Below, in pieces: positions 1,312 through 40,978 of a stretch of DNA of 64,000 bases. The stretch comes from Sulfolobus islandicus Y.N.15.51. Its GTDB lineage: Archaea > Thermoproteota > Thermoprotei_A > Sulfolobales > Sulfolobaceae. Below the pieces are notes generated by a model. That model did not search any database. It had not been told where the DNA came from and saw nothing but the letters and a program-made list of their open reading frames with translations. The translations under genes were made by a program, and so were the position numbers. Location: assembly GCF_000022485.1 (NCBI RefSeq), contig NC_012623.1:2072501-2136500 (forward strand), written 5' to 3'. Every line of letters begins with the position of its first letter. Within the stretch, counting starts at the first letter, position 1.

Positions 1312-1695
1312 TAGTTACGTATAACTAATTTAAGAGTTAAAAACTTTATAGAAATACATCAAACTAGCTACCCATGTAAATTAGCTATTGAAACTCCTTT
1401 TCTTCTAAGGTCTAATATTTAAAGATTTTATAAAATTTTTGTGAAAAGAATTCTTAATATTAGTTTTATTTTATCTAAAATATCGAGAAAATATTAATTT
1501 TAGCTTAAGTTAGCTAAATATTAACACAAGCGATATAATAGTTGCCAAATTTATAGTCTTTTTCATAATAGTTGCAACAGGCTTTTAACTTCTCTCAATA
1601 CAAAATATAGAAAAACATTGAGAAAAGCTTGTATTATTGTGAGATAAAACCTGTTAACAGATAATAAATTAAATATGAGAAAAATTTTCCCATAC

Positions 1696-2606
1696 TTATA
1701 CCTTCCTCAAGCACGTCATGAAACTTATTAATCCAATACCTAGTATAATTACCCTTAGAAACCAAATAATAGAACTCATCCTCAATTCTAGAGTATAACA
1801 CGAGTGATAATAAATATTAACCCAACGCTTCAAATCCTTCCAAACCAACTCAATTGGGTTTAAATCCGGAGAATAGGGAGGCAAGAATAGCAAAGTAATG
1901 TTAAGCCTAGAAGCAGTAGCGAGAACATAAGAAGACTTGTGAAACTTAGCATTATCAAGAATCAACACGACATTACCAGAATTCCTAACCCTAAGCAAGT
2001 AAAGAAAATTAGCGAAAACCCTAGAATCAACATTGTGAGCATAAAACAAGGCTTACCATCAAACAAGGGAATACAAGCTAGAATATTAACACTTGGATAA
2101 TCAACCCTAACAACATACAAACCCTAGAGGGATCATGACGAATACCAGACTCATCCATGAAAAACACTTTTACACCCTTCTTAATAACGCCCTTCAACCT
2201 CTCCCTAAGTCAGCATCTATTGGTCTCTTCTTGTCGATCTTGTAGGGTTTTATGTAGGGAATTTTCAGTCTTTTTCTCGCTATTCTCCAAGCTGTAGCTT
2301 ATTTTTACGTTGAACTTCTCCTCTATGTTTTTGCTTCCCATATTTTTCCTTGTATTTCTTCTACCTTTATTTCCCTCTCGTTTACCTTCTTTTTTCTTCC
2401 TTTTCTTTCCTTGTGGAATAGGCATTTTTCTCCCTCTCTCTGGAATTCGTTAATCCATCTATATACTGTGCTCTTGTGAACTTGTAGTATTTTTGCTATT
2501 TCGCTAATTTTCATTCCTTCCAAGTATTGCCCTAGCTTTTGTCTCGTTTAGGTTCTTGGGCTTCTTGCTAATTAGCTTCCTTTTTAAGGTCCTTAGCACA
2601 CTCATT
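1696..2606 (-). pseudogene. IS630-family transposase, broken into at least three frames
   Basis: Reading from about 2606 downward, an N-terminal piece starting MSVLRTLKRKL runs out of frame. A helix-turn-helix segment follows in another frame (2523-2323: MKISEIAKILQVHKSTVYRW), and the C-terminal catalytic half follows at 2049-1696. The last piece contains ILDNAKFHKS and LPPYSPDLNPIELVW, the second Asp and the Glu regions of the IS630 DDE domain. Several indels and the missing middle part show that the enzyme is not made as one protein. Mobilisation would need a transposase in trans. Confidence 0.8.
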
Positions 2607-2640
2607 TAGTTTTAATAGTGCATTTTGTCTAATATATCTT

Positions 2641-2700
2641 GGGGGCTGTTGGGTTCAAAGCGAATTAAGGTCCTCAACACGCTCAGCCCAACAGCTCCCC
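2641..2700. repeat. Long hairpin inside the IS630 relic
   Basis: The 5' arm GGGGGCTGTTGGG and the 3' arm CCCAACAGCTCCCC pair over 13 bp with one bulged base, and AGCG/CGCT pairs again further in. The loop repeats part of the sequence just upstream (AAGGTCCT.A.CAC at 2585 and 2667). It lies before the transposase start and could act as a leader hairpin, as an IS end, or as a separate small palindromic insertion. Confidence 0.5.
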
Positions 2701-2762
2701 ATTACTAACACTAGATTTACTAATTTTAGCCCCCCGTTGCAGCTATTATGAAAAAGACTATA

Positions 2763-3289
2763 TACTGTCATAATATTTAATGAAAATTAAAGTATACAAT
2801 AGGCTAGACTTATTAGGAAAAGGGAAGATCTCTGGCATATGACTAGTTCTAAATAACTAAGTTTCTAACTATTAACTCATATCAAAATGGTTTATTATAT
2901 TCCCTACTAATAGATATCAAATCGGTTATAGCATATTTAAAATAATTCTTTAGCATATATAAAATAGGCTAAAAGTTATATCATAATAACAGTCTTATCC
3001 CTAGCTTTAGTAAAGAAATTATATATTATATTTAGCGGAATCGACATATATGATGGAGCTATAAGAATATATTAAAACAGAATTAGTAGTCTATAATTTA
3101 ATAATTAAATATTTATCATCACATGTATACCTATTTTCGTAGAACGCATAATTAATATGAAAATTGTTAAACGTTAAGGTACTACTGGTTAAGCTCTAGA
3201 ATTAAGACTGTTAGCTAGGAGGACCGAACTCTTTCTCATGCATTTCTTTCATTCAGATTATTTTGGAGCTCTAATCTATCTTATCCAAT
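2763..3289. other. A+T-rich intergenic stretch
   Basis: No ORF, RNA gene or clear repeat is seen between the IS630 relic and the small element at 3290. Stop codons are frequent in all frames. Confidence 0.5.
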
Positions 3290-3420
3290 GGTTTGTGGGT
3301 TACTTCAAATTTTATCAAAGCTGGCATTAAACTTTCTTTTAATATAACGTTTGATTTCAAATTTTAGGAAATTCAATGAGCTTAACATATAAGAAAATTG
3401 AAGAAGTTCCCATAAAGCAC
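3290..3420 (-). mobile_element. MITE-like repeat, copy 1
   Basis: This 131-bp sequence is, in reverse complement, nearly identical to 6193-6325 and related to 19402-19530. Its ends are imperfect inverted repeats of the form GTGCTTTRTGGG..ACTTC, the same end found at 20430 at the start of the IS5 element, so it is probably a non-autonomous derivative of that IS. It ends 75 bp before the start codon of a large surface-protein gene. Confidence 0.7.
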
Positions 3421-3495
3421 TTATCCAGAGAAAAATTAAAAACTACCTAGGAAAAAGGGATAAAAATTTTATATGCCTAGATAAATAGATAAGTT

Positions 3496-5289
3496 GTGGA
3501 TAATGTAGTAATATATCTTGGGATAATAGTTGCAGGTTTCTTAATAGGCATACTATCCAATATTATACTAAAAAGAAATTCCCTATTAAAGTCATTCTAT
3601 ATAGTATCTGTGGCAGCTATTAACTTGATTATATTATCATTAATTTTAATTACATCGTTATTAATGAGAACCAATTTAAGTAATACACTTATACTTCTAT
3701 CACTCTTATTTCTCTCAATATTCTTTTCATTTTATATAAACGCCTATAGGAATATACTAAGTGATATAAATGTTTCAGCATTTGGACTAATTACGATAGT
3801 TATTCTATTATTAGCTATATCTCCCTTTTATATTTCGACAGATAGAAATACATCATATTTACCATCTTATGTAACTAATCCAAAAATCTCTACATCTCCC
3901 TTATTCCAAGATTATATAAAAATCTTAGGTAACCCTTATTACTATAATGTATATCGTCCTAATCCGATTTTATCGAGGAGTTTGGAAATATATTCGAACA
4001 TGGTATATAATTTATTAGGCAACTTTATTAATCAGTCACTAAGTATCAGAAATTTTTCTAATTATATATACATATCATTACATTCTGGAAATACTAGTGG
4101 AGCTATACAATATTATTCTGAATTATTGGAAACATTTGATAATCTTACAATCATAAAAAATAATATCACATATTACGCAAGCATTTTAGGTGAGTACTCA
4201 GATAGTTTAAGTTTTGGACAATTTCTACATATATTAAATAAAAATTATACCGCAATTAAAAACATTGTTAATAATTATTATATCATAATGAGTTTTATTT
4301 ATAAACTACCCAAAACCTCCCATATACCAGTAGAAATAAAGATTACCAAGTTAATAATTCCGTTTAATAAGACGGTAAATATAACTGGATTTCTTATTTC
4401 ACGTTCTAACTATTCGATAAATGGTACTTTATTTGTAAAATTTCTTAATACCTATAAGGTTGTTAATTTAACTAATTGTAGATTCTCTTTCCCAATTCGC
4501 TTAACTAATTACAGTAATCCTATTTATATAACTATATTATTTACGGGAAATAATATTTTCTTACCAAATATAACAACATTCGTAGTATATACCAATGTGA
4601 CGTTTACTAAACTATTTGTTAAGGCAATACCATACAATCCGTATGTAGGAGGTGATATGAATATAGTAGGATATGTTACTGGGTATAATAGAACGCTTGT
4701 AATTTCTTTGTTAAACTATACTAAAACATATATAGTTGGCGGTAACTTTAGTATTAAATTCCCTCTACCTTATAATCTAACTAATACTACATATCTCTTA
4801 AATTTTACTGTCTTACCTAAGAGTTATTTATCTCCAGCTGTTAAATATATAGTTATTACTCCTAAATTATACTATGAAAATCTTAGCGTTAATGTTATAG
4901 ATAAATGGATAATTCCTTTTCCATTAAAAATAACCGGAAAGATATATTATAATAATACACCTCTAAACAATGTGAAAATTTTCGTCTTCATTGGAAACTC
5001 TAGATATGAAACTATTTCGCATAATGGATATTTTTCTATTGAAGCAAAGCCTAAGCTTAGCGTTATATATGGAAATCAAATAATATATGTGGAATCTGAC
5101 CCTCAATATGCTTATTATAGAGAAGTAGCCGAAGTTCATACTACAGTGTATAACTTTATGATGTTCATTATATTACCTTTGATTTCATTATTTATAGTCA
5201 TATTGCTTAGAAAAAGATCTAAAGCAAATAAGCTTAAACAATTCAAATTAAAGGAGATTCCAATACAAGGTGTAAAAAATGAAAAATAA
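3496..5289 (+). CDS. Large membrane-anchored glycoprotein-like protein
   Basis: A 597-residue protein starting at GTG. The N-terminal 120 residues contain about four hydrophobic membrane helices (for example ILSNIILKRN preceded by YLGIIVAGFLIG). Residues of about 120-560 are extracytoplasmic in character, rich in Asn, Tyr and Ile with many N-x-S/T sequons, and contain strand-rich repeats that look like Ig or carboxypeptidase-regulatory modules (ITGFLISRSNYSINGTLFV; LKITGKIYYNNTPLNNVKIF). A final helix (MMFIILPLISLFIVILL) is followed by a basic tail. It overlaps the next gene by 11 bases, so the two are probably co-translated. The layout resembles archaeal multi-domain membrane proteins that pair with DUF4350-type proteins. 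No enzymatic motif is visible, and the function is unknown. Confidence 0.75.
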   Translation: MDNVVIYLGIIVAGFLIGILSNIILKRNSLLKSFYIVSVAAINLIILSLILITSLLMRTNLSNTLILLSLLFLSIFFSFYINAYRNILSDINVSAFGLITIVILLLAISPFYISTDRNTSYLPSYVTNPKISTSPLFQDYIKILGNPYYYNVYRPNPILSRSLEIYSNMVYNLLGNFINQSLSIRNFSNYIYISLHSGNTSGAIQYYSELLETFDNLTIIKNNITYYASILGEYSDSLSFGQFLHILNKNYTAIKNIVNNYYIIMSFIYKLPKTSHIPVEIKITKLIIPFNKTVNITGFLISRSNYSINGTLFVKFLNTYKVVNLTNCRFSFPIRLTNYSNPIYITILFTGNNIFLPNITTFVVYTNVTFTKLFVKAIPYNPYVGGDMNIVGYVTGYNRTLVISLLNYTKTYIVGGNFSIKFPLPYNLTNTTYLLNFTVLPKSYLSPAVKYIVITPKLYYENLSVNVIDKWIIPFPLKITGKIYYNNTPLNNVKIFVFIGNSRYETISHNGYFSIEAKPKLSVIYGNQIIYVESDPQYAYYREVAEVHTTVYNFMMFIILPLISLFIVILLRKRSKANKLKQFKLKEIPIQGVKNEK

Positions 5290-5932: not shown

Positions 5933-6063
5933 ACAAATTCATTAATTAATTTTTGGTAAATTAGCAGAGGAAACAAAACATGTCCTTATTTAACTACGAC
6001 TTACTTTGTGTTCAAACTTTTTATGTAGTTCAAATACAAAGAGAATTTTATCGCTAATAATAA

Positions 6064-6162
6064 TATAGTCTCTTTGATATTAACTGCAACGCTACTACTC
6101 AATTAAACTATTGATAAGATTCTTACTAGACCTTCTCGATTAGACTGCGTTCCCAATTCAAT
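6064..6162 (+). repeat. 99-bp inverted repeat, left copy
   Basis: Identical in reverse complement to 12982-13080 except for one base (G versus C near the outer end). The outer end (TATAGTCTCTTTGATATTAA) resembles the IS630 terminal repeat at 1553. The pair encloses 6.8 kb that carries a surface protein, a glycosyltransferase, the UDP-xylose operon and a winged-helix gene. Confidence 0.85.
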
Positions 6163-6192
6163 GAAAACCACTATAGAAGAAATTCCACACAA

Positions 6193-6325
6193 GTACTTTA
6201 TAGGAACTTCTTCAATTTTCTTATATGTTAAGCTCATTGAATTTCCTAAAATTTGAAATCAAACGTTATATTAAAAGAAAGTTTAATGCCAGCTTTGATA
6301 AAATTTGAAGTAACCCACAAAGCAC
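6193..6325 (+). mobile_element. MITE-like repeat, copy 2
   Basis: A 133-bp copy of the element at 3290-3420 in the opposite orientation, with almost no differences over 130 bp. It ends 48 bp before the start codon of the surface protein at 6374, and the TATA-like box of that gene (about 6342-6352) lies immediately beyond it. Copies 1 and 2 flank the 3496-5932 gene pair as inverted repeats. Confidence 0.75.
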
Positions 6326-6373
6326 ACAAAAGAATAATAATCTTTAAATATATAAATGTAAGTAAGTCTATCT

Positions 6374-8113
6374 ATGAAATTGATACTGCTGAGCATATTA
6401 CTTGGGCTAATTATACTGTTGTTTATTCCGGTTTTTAATGGAGGCAGCCAATTTTACGTGCTTGAAGTGTCAAGTATATTTCCATTTGAGATAAACGGTG
6501 TATCTTATCCCCCTGGCAATTACTATCTAATGTATAGAGGAATAGTAAATATAACCTTTTTCAATTTATATTATCAATCAAATACATCAAGATTACATCT
6601 TATAGGAATAAACTTTAATGGCACTTTCCTTAATTCTTCATCAGAAATTATAGGCATATTAAAAATTTATAGTAAAAATAATTTCACATCTGTAATAGTT
6701 AACACTACTGAGCTATTTTATACCCATATTTCTTCTCTTTATGACAAAGAATTTTATGTTATAGTTAATGCTAGGCATGGTTCTCCAATAAGTAGCGGTT
6801 GGTATGCTTCTGGTGAGTTACTTACAATACCTTTAGGTGATACCTATCAAAATGGTTCAATAAGGTACATAATATCTCATGTATTGGTTAACGGCACACA
6901 GAAAACCTCTTTTAATGTTAATTCGCCTTTGATAGTCAATGTTACATATCTTGTAGAATATTTGGTTAACTTTTCTAAACCTACGTATGCCTATATGAAT
7001 GGCAGTTTAGAAATAATGAGCTCCCAATGGTTACCTAATGATACTCAACTAGCTATTCCAAAATATATTAATCTAACTAGAGATACCAGAATATTTACTA
7101 CTGGAAATCTTACTGGCGTAGTATATATCAATAAGCCGATAATTATAAATGATACTCAAATTTTTCAATATTATGTTAACGTTAAGGACCCAGTAATAGC
7201 TAAAATTAATGGAAACTATACTAATTTTACTTCAAATTGGTACAACGCAGGAACACAGATATTTATCCCCCCATATTTTCCTTTAATTAATGATTATAGA
7301 ATAGCCATATATGGAAATCTTACTGGGATGTTTACTATAGAGTCTCCACTTATAATAAATGATAGAGAAAACATCCAATACTATTTGCAATTTCCATTCC
7401 CTTTACAAATAAGTCTATCTAATGGTACATTATACTATGGAACAAATATATGGATTAATAATGGTACTTATGCGATAATATATTCTCAAATACGTTATAT
7501 AAATAACGTAACTAGAGCAATAGTAATACAACAAGTCTTTAATTCTCCAAATTTTGGGAAATTAAATTATATCTTACAATATTTTGTTACTTCAAATCTA
7601 CCGTTACCCGTTTCCATAAATGGAACTAACACTACATTAACTAATGGCTGGTTTAACCAAAGTACAGAATTTTACGTCTATCCTGTCTATTATGTGAACT
7701 CTACCGAGAGAATAGTAATCTTATACATTAATTATAGAAATATTACTCTACTCTCGCCACTATATTTTAACGTATATTATATTAAAGAATATTTAGTTAA
7801 CATAGAGGGATATTATTCACATTTAGTTATATTAGACGAGAAACTCTGGGAACCTTACGGTTCTATTGTGCAAATACCATTGCAATATGAATATGAAGGT
7901 ATCTATTTTGAATCCAATTCAACTACTAATCAATATTATATATTTGGTCCTTCAAACATTACGATTTATTATAAGCCGATAGATATTACAACTTCAGTCT
8001 ATACTCCAGTAATTGCAGGATTACCTATAGAAGCATTCGTAATAACTATAATTATAATAATCGTCTTAGCGTTAGTTTTACTTATATTTAACAGAAGTAG
8101 AGTTAATAAATAA
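6374..8113 (+). CDS. Secreted, membrane-anchored repeat surface protein
   Basis: A 579-residue protein with a cleavable-looking signal (LILLSILLGLIILLFIPVF), a long extracellular region and a C-terminal membrane anchor (AFVITIIIIIVLALVLLIF) followed by a short basic tail. The ectodomain is made of about four units of 70-80 residues. Each has a sequence of the type YMNGSLEIMSSQWLPNDTQ or NFTSNWYNAGTQIFIPPY followed by GNLTGV/M and IIINDTQIFQYY, similar to repeat modules found in thermopsin-like and other Sulfolobales surface proteins. N-x-S/T sequons are very frequent. No Asp protease motif (D-T/S-G) is seen, so it is probably structural or adhesive. The gene follows a MITE copy that sits directly upstream of its promoter. 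Confidence 0.75.
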   Translation: MKLILLSILLGLIILLFIPVFNGGSQFYVLEVSSIFPFEINGVSYPPGNYYLMYRGIVNITFFNLYYQSNTSRLHLIGINFNGTFLNSSSEIIGILKIYSKNNFTSVIVNTTELFYTHISSLYDKEFYVIVNARHGSPISSGWYASGELLTIPLGDTYQNGSIRYIISHVLVNGTQKTSFNVNSPLIVNVTYLVEYLVNFSKPTYAYMNGSLEIMSSQWLPNDTQLAIPKYINLTRDTRIFTTGNLTGVVYINKPIIINDTQIFQYYVNVKDPVIAKINGNYTNFTSNWYNAGTQIFIPPYFPLINDYRIAIYGNLTGMFTIESPLIINDRENIQYYLQFPFPLQISLSNGTLYYGTNIWINNGTYAIIYSQIRYINNVTRAIVIQQVFNSPNFGKLNYILQYFVTSNLPLPVSINGTNTTLTNGWFNQSTEFYVYPVYYVNSTERIVILYINYRNITLLSPLYFNVYYIKEYLVNIEGYYSHLVILDEKLWEPYGSIVQIPLQYEYEGIYFESNSTTNQYYIFGPSNITIYYKPIDITTSVYTPVIAGLPIEAFVITIIIIIVLALVLLIFNRSRVNK

Positions 8114-8269
8114 ATGATTTTAACAAATAATGTGCCTCATAATCAATGAATCAAATATTGATGTTGTTTATAGAGTTAAAAACGGCTTACTCATTTTACT
8201 TTTTAGTATTTTTTGAGAAAAACTCTTTAGGTCTTACTACTTCCTTAATTTCATCAGTCCTTCTCGACA

Positions 8270-8371
8270 TCAAACTTCACTCGTTAAAATTCTGTTATTC
8301 CTAACGCTTTTAATCCTCTCCAAAACTTCATCAGGTAAAGTTCTTTCAATTGTTAGAGTCTTAGTAGTGAT
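8270..8371 (-). pseudogene. Relic of a small antitoxin-like gene
   Basis: The minus strand reads TKTLTIERTLPDEVLERIKS and on to a stop at 8270-8272, without any usable start codon. Its stop overlaps an ATG (8270-8268) of a second short frame beginning MSRRTDEIKEV that ends after 24 codons. The composition and the 1-base stop/start overlap resemble a VapB-type antitoxin followed by the beginning of a toxin gene, both decayed. This reading is tentative. Confidence 0.3.
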
Positions 8372-8394
8372 GTATAATAATTAGATTAAATACA

Positions 8395-8402
8395 TTTATA
8401 TA
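8395..8402 (+). promoter_or_regulatory. TATA box of the GT2 gene
   Basis: TTTATATA centred about 25 bases before the ATG at 8424. The spacing places transcription start at or next to the start codon, so the mRNA is probably leaderless. Confidence 0.5.
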
Positions 8403-8423
8403 GTATAGTAGCAATTTTATACT

Positions 8424-9272
8424 ATGGTACTCTTAAGTATTACAATAACAGCTAAAAATGAAGCTCCAGTAATAGATAAGGTATTAAATAACTTGATTAA
8501 ACAGCTAAATGATATAAACTATGAAATGATTTTAATAGATAATTGGAGTAGCGATAATACTTTTCAGATATTAAAGAAGTATGAAAATAATCACATTAAA
8601 GTTTTTCGATACAAAGGAAGTAAAGGCTCTGCAAGAAATTTTGCTCTTAAGAAAGCCGATGGAAAATACGTAATGGCATTAGATGCCGATCAAGTTTATC
8701 TCAATTTGGATAAATTTCTTAGAGATTATTTTTCAAGATATTCTTCATATGCAGTAAAAATTGGTAGAAGTTCATTTCCAATAATATCTCCCAAAGAATT
8801 ACTAATGAATGTAGGAGGATGGAGAGATCTGCAGTTCGCAGAAGATTGGGACTTATGGTTTAGACTAGCGGAGGCATGTAAATATATTTATCTTATTGAT
8901 TATGATTGGGTATTTGGAGAACATATTAGAAGTCATAAAAATAATTATAGCATACTATCAAAAATACTAAAATACATGCTAAAATATAGAGATTTATATA
9001 TAGTTGGGTTACCAATCCGTCCACAAAATATTTATAATAAGTTTTTTTATCAGTTAGGGATGGTGCTATCATTCTTCAAGAACGAAAAGAAAATAGTATA
9101 CAATTGCACTAAATACTTAGAAATACCCACTGATAAAATTGAAAGCGAAATGGATTGGGATTTGCAGTTTCACTATAATTTAATTAGATATCAACTTTTA
9201 ACATGTAAAAATAAGCCTATATTTTTAGAAGTATTATCTAAATTTGAGAATTATTTTAAAAAGAAATTGTAG
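8424..9272 (+). CDS. Glycosyltransferase, GT2/GT-A type
   Basis: A 282-residue GT-A glycosyltransferase. It begins SITITAKNEAPVIDKVLNNL, followed by ILIDNWSSDNT (nucleotide-binding strand and Asp) and the metal-binding motif ALDADQ near residue 90. GWRDLQFAEDWDLWFRLAE corresponds to the acceptor/catalytic ED-D/W region of the family. There is no C-terminal membrane helix, so it would act at the cytoplasmic membrane surface. A TATA box lies about 25 bases upstream. Its neighbours (surface glycoproteins on one side, nucleotide-sugar synthesis on the other) suggest that it builds the glycan of these proteins. Confidence 0.85.
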   Translation: MVLLSITITAKNEAPVIDKVLNNLIKQLNDINYEMILIDNWSSDNTFQILKKYENNHIKVFRYKGSKGSARNFALKKADGKYVMALDADQVYLNLDKFLRDYFSRYSSYAVKIGRSSFPIISPKELLMNVGGWRDLQFAEDWDLWFRLAEACKYIYLIDYDWVFGEHIRSHKNNYSILSKILKYMLKYRDLYIVGLPIRPQNIYNKFFYQLGMVLSFFKNEKKIVYNCTKYLEIPTDKIESEMDWDLQFHYNLIRYQLLTCKNKPIFLEVLSKFENYFKKKL

Positions 9273-9561
9273 CCTATAATATATAAATCACATCATTGAT
9301 TCTAATCTTTCCATGATTTTTAGAAAGCTAAATTTTCCCTTTTATATTTATAGAATCTAAAAGATTAACGAGAAGTTGACGTATTAATGCGTAAGATTCC
9401 ATTATCATCTGCTCCAATAAAAATGCTATCATGTACTTGTTTTTCTTCTTCAATGCTAGCAAAAAGTATTATCTATCAAAATTTTTTTCTATCTGGAAAT
9501 TTTTATTATATCTAAATAATTCAAAGCAAAGTTTATCTTATACTTAACATATGTATATTTA

Positions 9562-10485
9562 ATGAAGTTTCTTATAAGTGGCGGTGCTGGATTTCTAGGC
9601 TCTCATCTTATAGAAAACTTGGCTAATGAACATGAAATAACAATAGTAGACGATTTATCAACTACAAAATATATACAACTACCAAAAAATGTGAAATTGA
9701 TAAAAGACAAAATAGAGAATTTTAAAACAAATGAAAAATTTGACTACATCCTACATTTAGCGGCAAGGCCATCACCAGAAGATTACATGAACAATCCAAT
9801 AGAAACATTGTTATCAAACTCCATAGGGACATGGAATGCATTAGAAATAGCTAGAAAGAGTGATGCAATATTTATGTATACTTCTTCCTCAGAAATTTAC
9901 GGCAATGCAGAAGTATTACCAATACCAGAAGAATATTGGGGAAAAGTAAACCCTATTGGAGTTAGAAGTTGTTATGATGAAGGAAAAAGATTCTCGGAAG
10001 CATTAACAATGGCATATTATAGGGAATATGGATTAGACGTTAGAATACAGAGACCATTTAACGTTTATGGGCCTAGATTGAGAGAAGATGGAAACTATGG
10101 AAGAGTAATATCACGTTTTATATATCAAGCATTAAGAGGAGAAGACATTACAGTCTTTGGAGATGGTAAACAAACTAGGGCATTCTTATACGTTACAGAT
10201 TGGGTTGAAGCTACGAAAAAGCTTTTATTTAGCAAGGGAATAAAGGGCATAGTGTTAAATATTGGCTCAGATAAAGAGGTTAAGATAATAGAGTTAGCTA
10301 GAATGATAATAAATCTAACTAATAGTAAATCTAATATAAAATTCCTTCCACCAAGACCAGATGATCCTTCAAGAAGGGCTGCAGATATAACAAAAGCTAA
10401 AAAGTTGCTAAATTGGGAGCCTAAAGTATCCTTAGAAGAAGGGTTAAGGAAAACAATAGATTGGTTTAGGGGTGTAATTGAATGA
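9562..10485 (+). CDS. UDP-glucuronate decarboxylase-like (UDP-xylose synthase) SDR
   Basis: A 307-residue extended SDR enzyme. The NAD site is GGAGFLGSHLIE, the Ser region YTSSSEIYG, and the catalytic Tyr/Lys lie in SCYDEGKR (YxxxK). The blocks YWGKVNPIGVRSCYDEGKR, RPFNVYGPRL and RPDDPSRRAADITKAKKLL match the pattern of UDP-glucuronate decarboxylases more closely than that of UDP-glucose 4-epimerases or dTDP-glucose dehydratases. The predicted reaction is oxidation at C4, loss of C6 as CO2 and re-reduction, giving UDP-xylose. The stop overlaps the next start by 4 bases (ATGA), and the next two genes supply its substrate, which supports the call. An epimerase or dehydratase remains possible. 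Confidence 0.75.
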   Translation: MKFLISGGAGFLGSHLIENLANEHEITIVDDLSTTKYIQLPKNVKLIKDKIENFKTNEKFDYILHLAARPSPEDYMNNPIETLLSNSIGTWNALEIARKSDAIFMYTSSSEIYGNAEVLPIPEEYWGKVNPIGVRSCYDEGKRFSEALTMAYYREYGLDVRIQRPFNVYGPRLREDGNYGRVISRFIYQALRGEDITVFGDGKQTRAFLYVTDWVEATKKLLFSKGIKGIVLNIGSDKEVKIIELARMIINLTNSKSNIKFLPPRPDDPSRRAADITKAKKLLNWEPKVSLEEGLRKTIDWFRGVIE

Positions 10486-11696
10486 TAATAGGTATAGTAG
10501 GCTTAGGCTATGTAGGATTAGTAACTGGTGCAGTTTTAGCTGATCAAGGACATTACGTAATAGGTGTCGATATAGACGAGAAAAAGGTAAATGGATTAAA
10601 TTGTAATAGAATACCAATTTATGAACCCGGTTTAGATGAGTTAATAATGAAAAATAAGAAAAAAATACAATTTACTACAAACTATTCTGATCTATCTGAT
10701 GCTAATATAGTTTTTATAGCAGTTTCTACACCAACAATAAATGGAAAAATTTTTCTACATTATATTTACTCAGCAGGAGAAAATTTACAAAAAATCTTGA
10801 ATAAAGAATCCGTAATAGTAATAAAAAGTACAGTGGTTCCAGGAACTTCAAGAAAGGTTAAGGAAATAACTAAGAGAGAAGTAATAGTGAATCCAGAATT
10901 TTTAAGGGAAGGGAGTGCTATTACTGATACTAAACATCCTGAAAGGATAGTTATAGGTGGAGATGATGAAAAAGCGATTAAGTTAATAGAAGATTTATGG
11001 TCATTTACTAATTCGCCGATAATAAAAACTTCAATGGAAGAGGCTGAGTTAATAAAATACGCAGCAAATTCTTTTCTCGCTGTAAAGATTTCATTTATAA
11101 ATGAGATTGCTAACCTATGTGAAAAAATCCCAAATTGTGATATAAATAATATAGCAAAGGCAATCGGCATGGATAAGCGCATATCACCATATTTTTTAAA
11201 CGCAGGACTAGGTTTCGGCGGATCATGTTTCCCTAAGGATACATTAGCTATTACCTCTTTTGCTAAAGATTTAGGAGAGAGACTACATATCGTAGAAGCT
11301 GCAATCGAGGTTAATAATGAAAGGCCCTTTAGAGCAGTCAAAATGATGGAAGATTTAATTGGAAAATTAGAGAACAAGAGTATTTGTATATTAGGAATAG
11401 CATTCAAGCCAAATACTGATGATACTAGAGAAAGTGTAGGTCTAAAAATAGCTAAATTGATTAGAGAAAAAGGAGGTAAGGTTATAGTATACGATCCAAA
11501 AGCTAAAGCTGATTTAGAGATGGTCTCACTTGATGAGTGTATAAATAAAGCTGATGGGATAATAATTGCTACTGAATGGGATGAATTCAGAGGATTAGAG
11601 GATAGATTAAAAGGAAAATATGTAGTAGATGGAAGGAGAATCCTAAACTATAAAAAGTTAGAGAAAGGTAAATTTAAGGCAATAGGTGTTAGTTAA
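10482..11696 (+). CDS. ugd: UDP-glucose 6-dehydrogenase
   Basis: A 404-residue dehydrogenase that oxidises UDP-glucose twice to UDP-glucuronate with NAD+. The N-terminal Rossmann motif is GIVGLGYVGLVTGAVLADQG. The catalytic Cys is in GLGFGGSCFPKDTLAI (about residue 250), and the conserved Lys/Asn helix is KYAANSFLAVKISFINEI. The C-terminal UDP-binding Rossmann domain starts at ICILGIAFKPNTDDTRES. Length and domain order are normal for the family (AglM/Ugd). It is translationally coupled to both neighbours (4-base overlap before, TAATG junction after), so GalU, Ugd and the decarboxylase would be made together. Confidence 0.93.
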   Translation: MIIGIVGLGYVGLVTGAVLADQGHYVIGVDIDEKKVNGLNCNRIPIYEPGLDELIMKNKKKIQFTTNYSDLSDANIVFIAVSTPTINGKIFLHYIYSAGENLQKILNKESVIVIKSTVVPGTSRKVKEITKREVIVNPEFLREGSAITDTKHPERIVIGGDDEKAIKLIEDLWSFTNSPIIKTSMEEAELIKYAANSFLAVKISFINEIANLCEKIPNCDINNIAKAIGMDKRISPYFLNAGLGFGGSCFPKDTLAITSFAKDLGERLHIVEAAIEVNNERPFRAVKMMEDLIGKLENKSICILGIAFKPNTDDTRESVGLKIAKLIREKGGKVIVYDPKAKADLEMVSLDECINKADGIIIATEWDEFRGLEDRLKGKYVVDGRRILNYKKLEKGKFKAIGVS

Positions 11697-12448
11697 TGCA
11701 TGCAGTAATAACTGCAGCTGGATTAGGCACTCGAATGTTACCCGCTTCTAAAGAAATTCCTAAGGAGATGTTTCCAATTCCCTTTAACAATGGATTTAAG
11801 CCAATTATACAAATAATCTTTGAGCAACTTTATAATAAGGGTATAAGGGATTTCGTTATAGTTGTTGGTAGGGGTAAGAGGGTAATTGAAGATCATTTTA
11901 CACCAGATTACGATTTTGTCTCTTACCTTGAAAAAGTAGGTAAAGAAAAGCAGGCAAGGGAGTTATTAACATTTTACTCTAAAATAGAGAAAAGCAATAT
12001 AGCATTTGTAAATCAGCCTGAACCAAAAGGATTTGGAGATGCGGTACTGAGAGTAGAACCTTTTATTAATGATAAATTCATTGTAGTAGCAGCAGACACT
12101 CTATTAAGAGAGATTCCAGATTTAATACCTAACTCTTTTCTAGTTACTGAAGTAGAAGATCCTAGACCATATGGTGTAGTAATATTAGAGGGAGATAGAG
12201 TTATAGATGTCGAGGAAAAACCTAAGAATCCTAAATCCCGTTTTATAATAGTTCCTTACTATATGTTTACATATGATATATTTCACGCCTTAAGAGAAGT
12301 TAAGTGTAACGGAGAATTACAACTTACTGAAGGGATAAAAATATTGCTGAAAAAAGGTGTGGAATTTATTGCAAAAAGAGTAAATGATGTTTATGATCTG
12401 GGTAGTATAGAGAATTATATTGCATCTATAAAGAAAATTATTGGATAA
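11696..12448 (+). CDS. galU: UTP-glucose-1-phosphate uridylyltransferase
   Basis: A 250-residue nucleotidyltransferase making UDP-glucose from glucose-1-phosphate and UTP. The signature is ITAAGLGTRMLPASKEIPKE at the N-terminus, followed by the sugar-binding Asp in VVAADTLL and VEDPRPYGVVILEGDRVIDVEEKP. It is somewhat shorter than bacterial GalU (about 290-300) but complete. Its start shares one base with the stop of ugd (TAATG). It is the first step of the UDP-xylose route encoded by this operon, although it is the last gene in the transcript. Confidence 0.9.
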   Translation: MHAVITAAGLGTRMLPASKEIPKEMFPIPFNNGFKPIIQIIFEQLYNKGIRDFVIVVGRGKRVIEDHFTPDYDFVSYLEKVGKEKQARELLTFYSKIEKSNIAFVNQPEPKGFGDAVLRVEPFINDKFIVVAADTLLREIPDLIPNSFLVTEVEDPRPYGVVILEGDRVIDVEEKPKNPKSRFIIVPYYMFTYDIFHALREVKCNGELQLTEGIKILLKKGVEFIAKRVNDVYDLGSIENYIASIKKIIG

Positions 12449-12538
12449 CAAGTAATTTAGTTTATATTATCCTAAATTATAATAAAAACTTTATATCTAA
12501 CTTCATTTAAATTCTATTTAATGGTATAAAATAATATT

Positions 12539-12850
12539 TTAAGATTCAGTCTGCATTAGCTCTTCCAATTTCATTCTAACTTCATTAAGCTTGCTATACA
12601 TCTCCATGTATTTATCCAACAATTCTAGTACTCTTTTCCCCTTATCTGTCAAAACACATTTTCCCTCATTAAATTCCATTAAATTCATTTCTTTCATATT
12701 ATAAATATATTTCATAAAAACTGAATAGTTCAACTTAGCAAGATACATTAATCTAGTCTTCTTACTTCCTTCACTACAACCTCTTAAAATGCTGTAAATT
12801 ATTTCAGTCTTAGTCCTTCTTCTATTCTCAATCATTATCTGTACTATCAA
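12539..12850 (-). CDS. Winged-helix transcriptional regulator (HTH_45-like)
   Basis: A 103-residue protein. Residues of about 10-75 form a winged helix (TEIIYSILRGCSEGSKKTRL, then MKEMNLMEFNEGKCVLTDKGK), and the rest is a coiled-coil tail (LLDKYMEMYSKLNEVRMKL). It is clearly a paralogue of the protein at 24441-24743: both share KKTRLMY followed by LxYxxFxKY. Such proteins bind DNA as dimers through the C-terminal helix. It lies convergent to galU and inside the segment bounded by the 99-bp inverted repeats. The target genes are unknown, with the adjacent surface and glycan genes as candidates. Confidence 0.75.
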   Translation of the reverse strand: MIVQIMIENRRRTKTEIIYSILRGCSEGSKKTRLMYLAKLNYSVFMKYIYNMKEMNLMEFNEGKCVLTDKGKRVLELLDKYMEMYSKLNEVRMKLEELMQTES

Positions 12851-12981
12851 TATTCATTGTTAAAAAATTTTCTCGAAATTTAGAAGATTATCTTAAATTT
12901 TTTGAGTGATTAAATTTTTTATTTATCTAATAAACTTCATAAAGATTTAATAGAAGGGAAATTTTCCATTTAATAGTTTTT

Positions 12982-13080
12982 ATTGAATTGGGAACGCAGT
13001 CTAATCGAGAAGGTCTAGTAAGAATCTTATCAATAGTTTAATTGAGTAGTAGCGTTGCAGTTAATATGAAAGAGACTATA
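12982..13080 (-). repeat. 99-bp inverted repeat, right copy
   Basis: Reverse complement of 6064-6162 with 98 of 99 bases identical. It lies between the winged-helix gene and a glycosyltransferase and contains no ORF. The near identity contrasts with the decayed IS remnants around it, so the duplication is recent or the copies are kept identical by recombination. Confidence 0.85.
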
Positions 13081-13148
13081 TGGGGAAAAGCTAGATTTCA
13101 TGTTTTTCTTTTTTTACATAAAATTTAAAAAATCTACATTAATAATCT

Positions 13149-17580: not shown

Positions 17581-17790
17581 TTTGTTTGTTGATTTTTTCA
17601 ATTTATTTCATAAGTATAATACAACATAAGGAGAATTTTCAGTAATTAATATTTATTTCAACGTTATTCGCAAGCTCACACCCTAATACCCGGAGCTCTA
17701 CCGACTAAAGAATTAGCCAAGTGAACCATCCATGCGTAAGCCCAGAACTTGGCCTCAACCACTTGCCCTAAAAAACTTGTAGCCCTAACT
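17581..17790 (-). mobile_element. Relic of an IS5-type element, 3' end
   Basis: In reverse complement this matches 22760-22960 over about 200 bp. On the minus strand it encodes SFLGQVVEAKFWAYAWMVHL and on to RAPGIRV then stop, the C-terminus of the IS5-type transposase, followed by the non-coding IS end. It supplies the sequence VRATSFLGQ that is interrupted by the IS110 insertion in the other copy and so defines that insertion point. Confidence 0.7.
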
Positions 17791-22760: not shown

Positions 22761-23008
22761 AGTTTTTTAGGACAAGTGGTTGAGGCTAAGCTCAAGTTCT
22801 GGGCTTATGCATGGATGGTCCACTTGGCTAATTCTTTAGTTGGTAGAGCTCCGGGTATTAGGGTGTGAGCTTGCGAATAACGTTGAAATAAATATTAATT
22901 ACTGAAAAATTCTCAGTGTATCATATCATGCTTATGAAATAAATTGAAGAGGTCAACAAAGCATGGTCAAAGAGCTTAGGAAGTTCGGAGGGAGTATTAA
23001 AGAAAGAA

Positions 23009-24440: not shown

Positions 24441-24743
24441 ATGAGTCGAAAGAGAAATAGAATGGAGATAATAGCCAATATTTTAGAAGAATGTAAAGGA
24501 GGAATTAAGAAGACTAGATTAATGTATAAAACTAACTTAAGCTATGGACTATTCTGTAAATATACTAGATTACTAGAAAAAAAGGGTTTAATAACTTTTG
24601 TTGATAATGAATATAGGCTGACCGCTAAGGGATATGATTACCTAAATAGAGTAAAAGAATATATTAATCTCTTGAAAAAGCTTAAGGAGATGAGGGAATC
24701 TTTAGAGGATTTAAAGGATGAAAAACAATTAATTAAGAGATGA
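24441..24743 (+). CDS. Winged-helix transcriptional regulator (HTH_45-like)
   Basis: A 100-residue paralogue of the protein at 12539-12850. The winged helix covers about residues 8-72 (MEIIANILEECKGGIKKTRL, LLEKKGLITFVDNEYRLTAK) and a C-terminal coiled coil follows (EYINLLKKLKEMRESLEDLK). TTTTATACTATATG just before the start suggests a leaderless transcript. A membrane protein gene follows after 24 bases in the same direction and is probably co-transcribed, so the pair may act as regulator plus membrane partner. Confidence 0.75.
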   Translation: MSRKRNRMEIIANILEECKGGIKKTRLMYKTNLSYGLFCKYTRLLEKKGLITFVDNEYRLTAKGYDYLNRVKEYINLLKKLKEMRESLEDLKDEKQLIKR

Positions 24744-34794: not shown

Positions 34795-35998
34795 GGTTGA
34801 CTATTCTACATACTCAGCACTTAAGGAGGTCGAGGAGGAGTACAGAGAGGTTCTAGAGGAGGCAATAAATTATGGGCTGTCAAACAAAACTACCTCCTTC
34901 ACCAGGATTAAAGCGGGAGTTTACAAGACTGAGAGGGAGAAGCATAAGAACTTACCCTCACACTACATCTACACAGCTTGTGAGGATGCAAGCGAGAGAT
35001 TAGAGAGTTTTGAGAAGTTGAAGAAGAGAGGGAGGAGTTACACTGAGAAACCGTCAGTGAGGAGAGTTACTATTCACCTCGACGATCATCTGTGGAAGTT
35101 CAGCCTCGACACGATTTCAATTTCCACAAAGAGGAGTAGGGTTTTCATTTCACCAACCTTCCCTAAGATCTTCTGGAGATATTATAACAAGGGCTGGAGG
35201 ATTGCGAGTGAGGCCAGGTTTAAATTGTTGAAGGGGAATGTTGTAGAGTTCTACGTCATTTTTAAGAAGGATGAGCCTAAACCTTACGAGCCTAAGGGTT
35301 TCATCCCAGTTGATCTCAACGAGAATTCAGTCTCTGTATTAGTTGATGGAAAACCGATGCTTTTAGAGACTAACACTAAGAAAATTACTCTGGGCTATGA
35401 GTATAGGAGGAAGGCAATAACTACTGGTAAGTCAACTAAGGATAGGGAAGTGAGGAGGAAGTTAAAGAGGCTGAGGGAGAGGGATAAGAAAGTAGACATT
35501 AGGAGGAAATTAGCCAAGCTGATCGTTAAAGAGGCTTTTGAAAGTAGGAGTGTCATAGTTTTAGAGGACTTGCCAAGGAGAGCTCCGGAGCATATGATAA
35601 AGGACGTGAAGGATAAACAACTTAGGTTGAGGATTTATAGATCTGCATTTTCCTCAATGAAGAATGCTATTATTGAGAAGGCTAGGGAGTTTGGTGTCCC
35701 CGTGGTCTTAGTTAACCCATCTTATACTTCTACTGTTTGCCCAATTCATGGGGCGAAGATCGTTTACCAACTCGATGGGGGCGATGCCCCAAGGGTTGGT
35801 GTTTGTGAGAAGGGGAAGGAAAAGTGGCATAGGGATGTAGTTGCACTGTACAACTTAGCGAGGAGAGCTGGAGATGTGAGCCCCGTGCCGTTGGGCTCGA
35901 AGGAGTCCCATGACCCACCTACAGTAAGTGGGTGGTTGAGGGCTAAGTCCCTACACTCGATCATGAATGAACATAAAATGATTGAAATGAAAGTGTAG
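34766..35998 (+). CDS. tnpB: TnpB RNA-guided nuclease (variant zinc motif)
   Basis: A 410-residue TnpB starting at GTG within tnpA. The RuvC-like acids are present: Asp in FIPVDLNENSVSVLV, Glu in VIVLEDLPRRAPEH and the final Asp in WHRDVVALYNLARRAG. The zinc ribbon is unusual: the first knuckle is C-P-x-H (STVCPIHGAKI) and the second keeps only one Cys (VCEKGKEKW), unlike the C-x2-C pairs of the other TnpB in this window. TnpB cuts the empty donor site using a guide RNA whose scaffold overlaps the 3' end of its own gene and the element's right end. A short tail after the RuvC motif (residues 375-410) lies in that overlap. Confidence 0.9.
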   Translation: MERTVKLRVRVDYSTYSALKEVEEEYREVLEEAINYGLSNKTTSFTRIKAGVYKTEREKHKNLPSHYIYTACEDASERLESFEKLKKRGRSYTEKPSVRRVTIHLDDHLWKFSLDTISISTKRSRVFISPTFPKIFWRYYNKGWRIASEARFKLLKGNVVEFYVIFKKDEPKPYEPKGFIPVDLNENSVSVLVDGKPMLLETNTKKITLGYEYRRKAITTGKSTKDREVRRKLKRLRERDKKVDIRRKLAKLIVKEAFESRSVIVLEDLPRRAPEHMIKDVKDKQLRLRIYRSAFSSMKNAIIEKAREFGVPVVLVNPSYTSTVCPIHGAKIVYQLDGGDAPRVGVCEKGKEKWHRDVVALYNLARRAGDVSPVPLGSKESHDPPTVSGWLRAKSLHSIMNEHKMIEMKV

Positions 35999-36092
35999 GG
36001 ACAAACGGAAACCCTAGTACTTCCAGTAAGTTTTTGTATTATTACTTCTTATTTTATGATATCCAAACGAATAAGAACTTTGTGGAATTATT

Positions 36093-40722: not shown

Positions 40723-40978
40723 CCGTTTGTCCCTACACTTTCATTTCAATCATTTTATGATCATTCATGATCGAGTATAGGGACTTAGCCCTCAACCACC
40801 TTATAGGTGGGTCATGGGACTCATTTGAGCCCAACGGCACGGGGCTCACATCTCCGTAATCCCCTCACCCTTTTGGGCATAACCCACATCGGCGTGAGAG
40901 ATCATCATTTATCAATAATTTTTTGTTATAAACAGATATAAAAAGATTTCTATTAACGTGAAAAAGGATTCAGCCCGA
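40723..40978 (-). mobile_element. Internally deleted IS607 derivative keeping both ends
   Basis: A 256-bp element on the minus strand. Its right part matches the left end of the IS607 at 34090 (GGCTGAATCC..TCACGTTAATAGAAATC), and its left part matches the last 130 bp of that element, including the 3' end of tnpB and the terminus GTGTAGGGACAAACGG. Everything between, including tnpA and the RuvC domain, is gone. The region that in TnpB elements encodes the guide-RNA scaffold is retained. Confidence 0.8.

Follow-up and report, generated by a model that had tools for sequence, protein, structure and literature searches.

The two 99-bp inverted repeats that bracket a block of surface-protein and sugar-nucleotide genes in Sulfolobus islandicus Y.N.15.51 are, in our reading, each the better-conserved stretch of a copy of an IS630-related MITE of about 112 bp, and the two copies inserted beside a gene block that was already there and fixed in its arrangement (probability roughly 0.9). 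The pair is ordinary debris of transposition, and nothing indicates a gene cassette that inverts or moves. The analysis concerns a stretch of 64,000 nucleotides, hereafter the window, and the features discussed below are collected in Table 1, where the two copies are called A-left and A-right and their family A.

Table 1. Positions of the repeats, the enclosed genes and the neighbouring elements in the window.
Feature	Position	Strand	Remarks
Decayed IS630-family insertion sequence	1552..2762	-	Related terminal repeats TATAGTCTTTTTCATAATAGYTGCAAC
Copy B' of MITE-like family B	3288..3420	-	Inverted relative to B, 98% identical
MITE copy A-left	6064..6175	+	112 bp including TA at each end; outer end TATAGTCTCTTTGATATTAACTGCAAC, inner end (reverse complement) TATAGTGGTTTTCATTGAATTGGGAAC
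MITE-like family B copy	6191..6325	+	Directly inside A-left; high-copy second family
Enclosed gene block	6374..12448	+	Membrane/surface-like protein (family unassigned), glycosyltransferase family 2, NAD-dependent epimerase/dehydratase, UDP-glucose/GDP-mannose dehydrogenase, nucleotidyltransferase
Sso10a-family / winged-helix DNA-binding protein gene	12539..12850	-	Inside the bracketed segment; assigned by family searches
MITE copy A-right	12972..13080	-	Inverted relative to A-left; placed by family alignment; none at this place in G002

Extent, ends and family of the repeats

The inverted match reported in the initial annotation was confirmed by direct comparison, in which 6064-6162 and the reverse complement of 12982-13080 were alike at 98 of 99 positions. 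The inverted pair is therefore real, although the word "exact" that had been applied to it is slightly off, the sole mismatch falling at 6076 (G in the left arm, C in the right). A genome-wide search recovered the right-arm partner with an E of about 3e-47, far above chance. Extended without gaps, the match covers 122 nt at 93% identity (6063-6184 against 12960-13081), and the homology reaches the other end of the element, at 6175 on the left and at about 12972 on the right; the 99 bp are only the best-conserved part of an element of about 112 bp. Where the two copies part is the inner tail, in which GAAAACCACTATA of the left copy is replaced in the right copy by AAAAACTATTA, through several clustered changes.

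The outer ends had also been likened to the terminal repeats of the IS630 element listed in Table 1, and this likeness is real. The outer end, TATAGTCTCTTTSATATTAACTGCAAC, agrees with the terminal repeats of that element at 22-24 of 27 bases and with those of the same kind of element in another genome, G001, at 24-25 of 27, against a best score of 19/27 among 500 random 135-bp stretches of the window, reached by a single one of them. Within A-left the IS630 terminal repeat is recognisable at both ends, in opposite orientations, the outer at 22/27 and the inner, read inward from the end, at 19/27. The bounds TATA...TATA are found in A-left, in a longer copy in the same genome and in the copies of G001, as is typical of insertion at TA with duplication of the dinucleotide.

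With terminal inverted repeats that match an IS630-family element, a short length, no transposase and three copies in its own genome, A bears the marks of an IS630-type MITE. The third copy (C1:2057933-2058101) lies 20.5 kb away and is longer, containing about 45-50 extra internal bases. Family A is thus rare in its own genome, and elsewhere we found diverged copies in G001 and in the close relative G002; G005 has a fragment, and a different genus yielded one partial copy. An exact-pattern scan of a public genome collection with a 28-mer from the repeat gave no match. MITE families SM1-SM4 have been described in S. solfataricus (PMC10969869), and SM3A and SMN1 in S. islandicus (PMC10969869, PMC3718332), whose variable regions abound in insertion sequences, MITEs and glycosyltransferase genes (PMC3718332). 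A resembles these Sulfolobus MITEs in being short and multi-copy, in having no open frame, in carrying terminal inverted repeats that match an insertion sequence, and in lying in a region rich in insertion sequences with glycosyltransferase genes. It differs from them in its rarity, and the likeness is one of general features. An RNA gene was considered as another reading of the repeats and rejected, since no Rfam family attained its gathering score at any point of the window and the folds of the A copies are no better than those of shuffled controls (z 0.5 and -0.5 with DNA parameters).

The IS630 element itself, together with its copies in this genome and in G001, shares with A the terminal repeat (22-25 of 27 bases alike) and the TA at the ends, whereas A lacks a transposase, and beyond the ends we recognised no internal sequence that the two have in common. 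A transposase fragment at 1696-2049 matches Pfam DDE_3 above cut-off and NCBIfam transpos_IS630 at 81.5 bits, which is below that model's whole-protein cut-off of 100. Long copies of the element occur elsewhere in the same genome at 92-97% identity, and none of the five longest of them showed an intact frame for the transposase. The element at 1552-2762 is a decayed member of the group that probably supplied the transposase for A.

The gene block and the insertion sites in related genomes

The relative G002, about 88-92% identical at the DNA level over the region, carries the enclosed genes in identical order and orientation, and no A copy was found there at either the left or the right site. 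The left site is a clean empty site in that relative: G002 has GCTAATTATAAT followed directly by GAAGAAATT, where the window has GCTAATAATAA, then the element (TATAGTC...CACTATA), then GAAGAAATT, and with longer flanks G002 reads GAATTTTCTTGCTAATTATAAT joined to GAAGAAATTTCACA against GAATTTTATCGCTAATAATAA, the same element and GAAGAAATTCCACA here. Homology to G002 breaks off and restarts exactly at the boundaries of A-left (6064 and 6175), and the flanks match one uninterrupted G002 site save for a 1-nt gap at the target, which leaves the site in agreement with insertion at TA, and a few substitutions. Because both left flanks match a single G002 site, A-left represents a simple insertion, and its inner flank has not been swapped with the one at A-right. 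On the right, too, the flanks map in order to G002, but about 0.5 kb of other DNA sits between them, and the site is not cleanly empty. The G002 DNA at this place is in L060 (G002:C2), at about 3130-3700, and part of it is a different multi-copy short repeat, with copies in our genome (G000), in G002 and in G003.

In the more distant G006, the genes for the surface protein, epimerase, dehydrogenase and nucleotidyltransferase likewise stand in the same order and orientation, the glycosyltransferase being the exception to the collinearity of the block, and no A copy was detected anywhere in that genome. Since the block is present in both relatives without the repeats, it is older than the repeats and was not delivered by them. 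The initial annotation had named, as the outcome that would speak against its own reading, a single orientation in all reads and in all strains with the repeats present elsewhere as simple MITEs, and as regards strains this is largely what we found: the block has one orientation across the assemblies G000, G002 and G006, and the repeat recurs as the third copy in the same genome and as the copies and the fragment in the other genomes listed above.

Two parts of the bracketed segment have relatives elsewhere. The sugar-nucleotide stretch at 9517-12450 of the window (genome from 2082017), 2.9 kb long, has a second copy, 71% identical, about 72 kb downstream at genome position 2156551, outside the window, and 12582-12827, in the Sso10a-family gene, is matched in inverted orientation by diverged sequence at 24443-24688 (62.5%). 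The label "UDP-xylose", given earlier to the block, is possible in view of the dehydrogenase and the epimerase/decarboxylase-like protein, but no curated UDP-xylose family was matched at cut-off.

Near-identity of the pair and alternative readings

Beside A-left lies family B, which has 37 matches in its own genome and occurs also in G001-G003. The copy directly inside A-left has an orthologue at the same place in G002, whereas the inverted copy B', 2.8 kb from it, has none at its site in G002 and lies between the two copies of a 7-bp direct repeat, TTATCCA (3281-3287 and 3421-3427), so that B' is probably a recent daughter. A survey of 384 kb, made up of the window and 320 kb around it, for pairs of 60-400 bp at an identity of at least 97% returned 15, three of them within 15 kb, where random placement would give about one (a fraction of 7.7%). 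The A-left/A-right pair is one of many near-identical short repeat pairs. A rule that near-identical short repeats in this region are inverted was rejected, inversion being seen in 8 of the 15 pairs. Two further inverted pairs lie in the window, at 17585-17777 / 22761-22960 (89%) and 35870-36008 / 40723-40855 (93%), and the repeats of both have additional copies in the 384 kb, in some cases with a higher identity.

Inverted arms of 99 bp with 98 identical positions are a possible substrate for homologous recombination, and the initial annotation had suggested that the 6.8-kb segment between them could invert. That the segment is a cassette switched by recombination between its arms is nevertheless very improbable: the genes have one orientation here, in G002, which has no arms, and in G006; the flanks of the left arm fit a single contiguous G002 site; and no recombinase gene is present among the enclosed proteins that were family-searched. 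The suggestion that the block is carried as a unit fares no better. A composite transposon moved by its two outer ends would agree with the IS630-like terminal repeats that both A copies present outward, in inverted orientation, but the genes are found at the same place in G002 and collinear in G006, both without repeats, and the left copy alone accounts for a simple insertion at its own site. As the origin of the block this reading is refuted, and we regard it as the least probable of those considered.

A less remote possibility, which we hold to be unlikely but which would add to the MITE reading instead of replacing it, is that gene conversion between the inverted arms homogenised the 99-bp part, leaving the final 13 bp of A-right different. 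The changes do cluster in those 13 bp, where at least 3 of some 4 events fall (P about 0.006); the derived form is that of A-right, other members of family A having the tail of A-left; and the neighbouring B and B' are 98% alike when the remaining B matches in the genome stand at about 81% or less, short fragments excepted. On the other hand, the events are few and the clustering test was made after the fact, abortive excision can also damage only one end of a transposon, and both A copies are missing from G002, which makes them young and conversion unneeded. The initial annotation had proposed recent duplication or gene conversion; of this the recency stands, the pair being nearly identical and absent from a close relative, and gene conversion retains some plausibility. 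Since the A pair arose after the split from G002, no special cause is needed for its near-identity.

Proposed course of events and implications

According to the reading we favour, that of two MITE insertions, a non-autonomous MITE with IS630-like terminal repeats, inserting at TA, would have been moved or copied by an IS630-family transposase acting in trans into two intergenic sites, in both cases after the lineage had split from that of G002. The left insertion would have landed upstream of the surface-protein gene and the right one between the winged-helix gene and a glycosyltransferase gene, with the intervening genes already in place and neither moved nor turned. At least one of the copies would descend recently from the other, or from a source common to both, and later gene conversion may have added to their near-identity. 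The comparisons show directly that the copies are present, how they end, that they are insertions relative to G002 and that the genes keep one orientation in the assemblies; the IS630 transposase as the mover and this order of events are what we infer.

The analysis removes a candidate invertible cassette from this region and places two MITE insertions later than the divergence from G002, a close relative; otherwise it adds little beyond annotation. One could also speculate, though we consider it rather doubtful, that the MITEs spread through local hops, or that gene conversion over short distances keeps them alike, so that near neighbours are the closest relatives: a 28-kb span of the 2.8-Mb chromosome holds all three A copies of this genome, and the members of the sole near-identical pair of family B are 2.8 kb apart. 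Local hopping, if true, would inform how IS630-type elements spread in these archaea.
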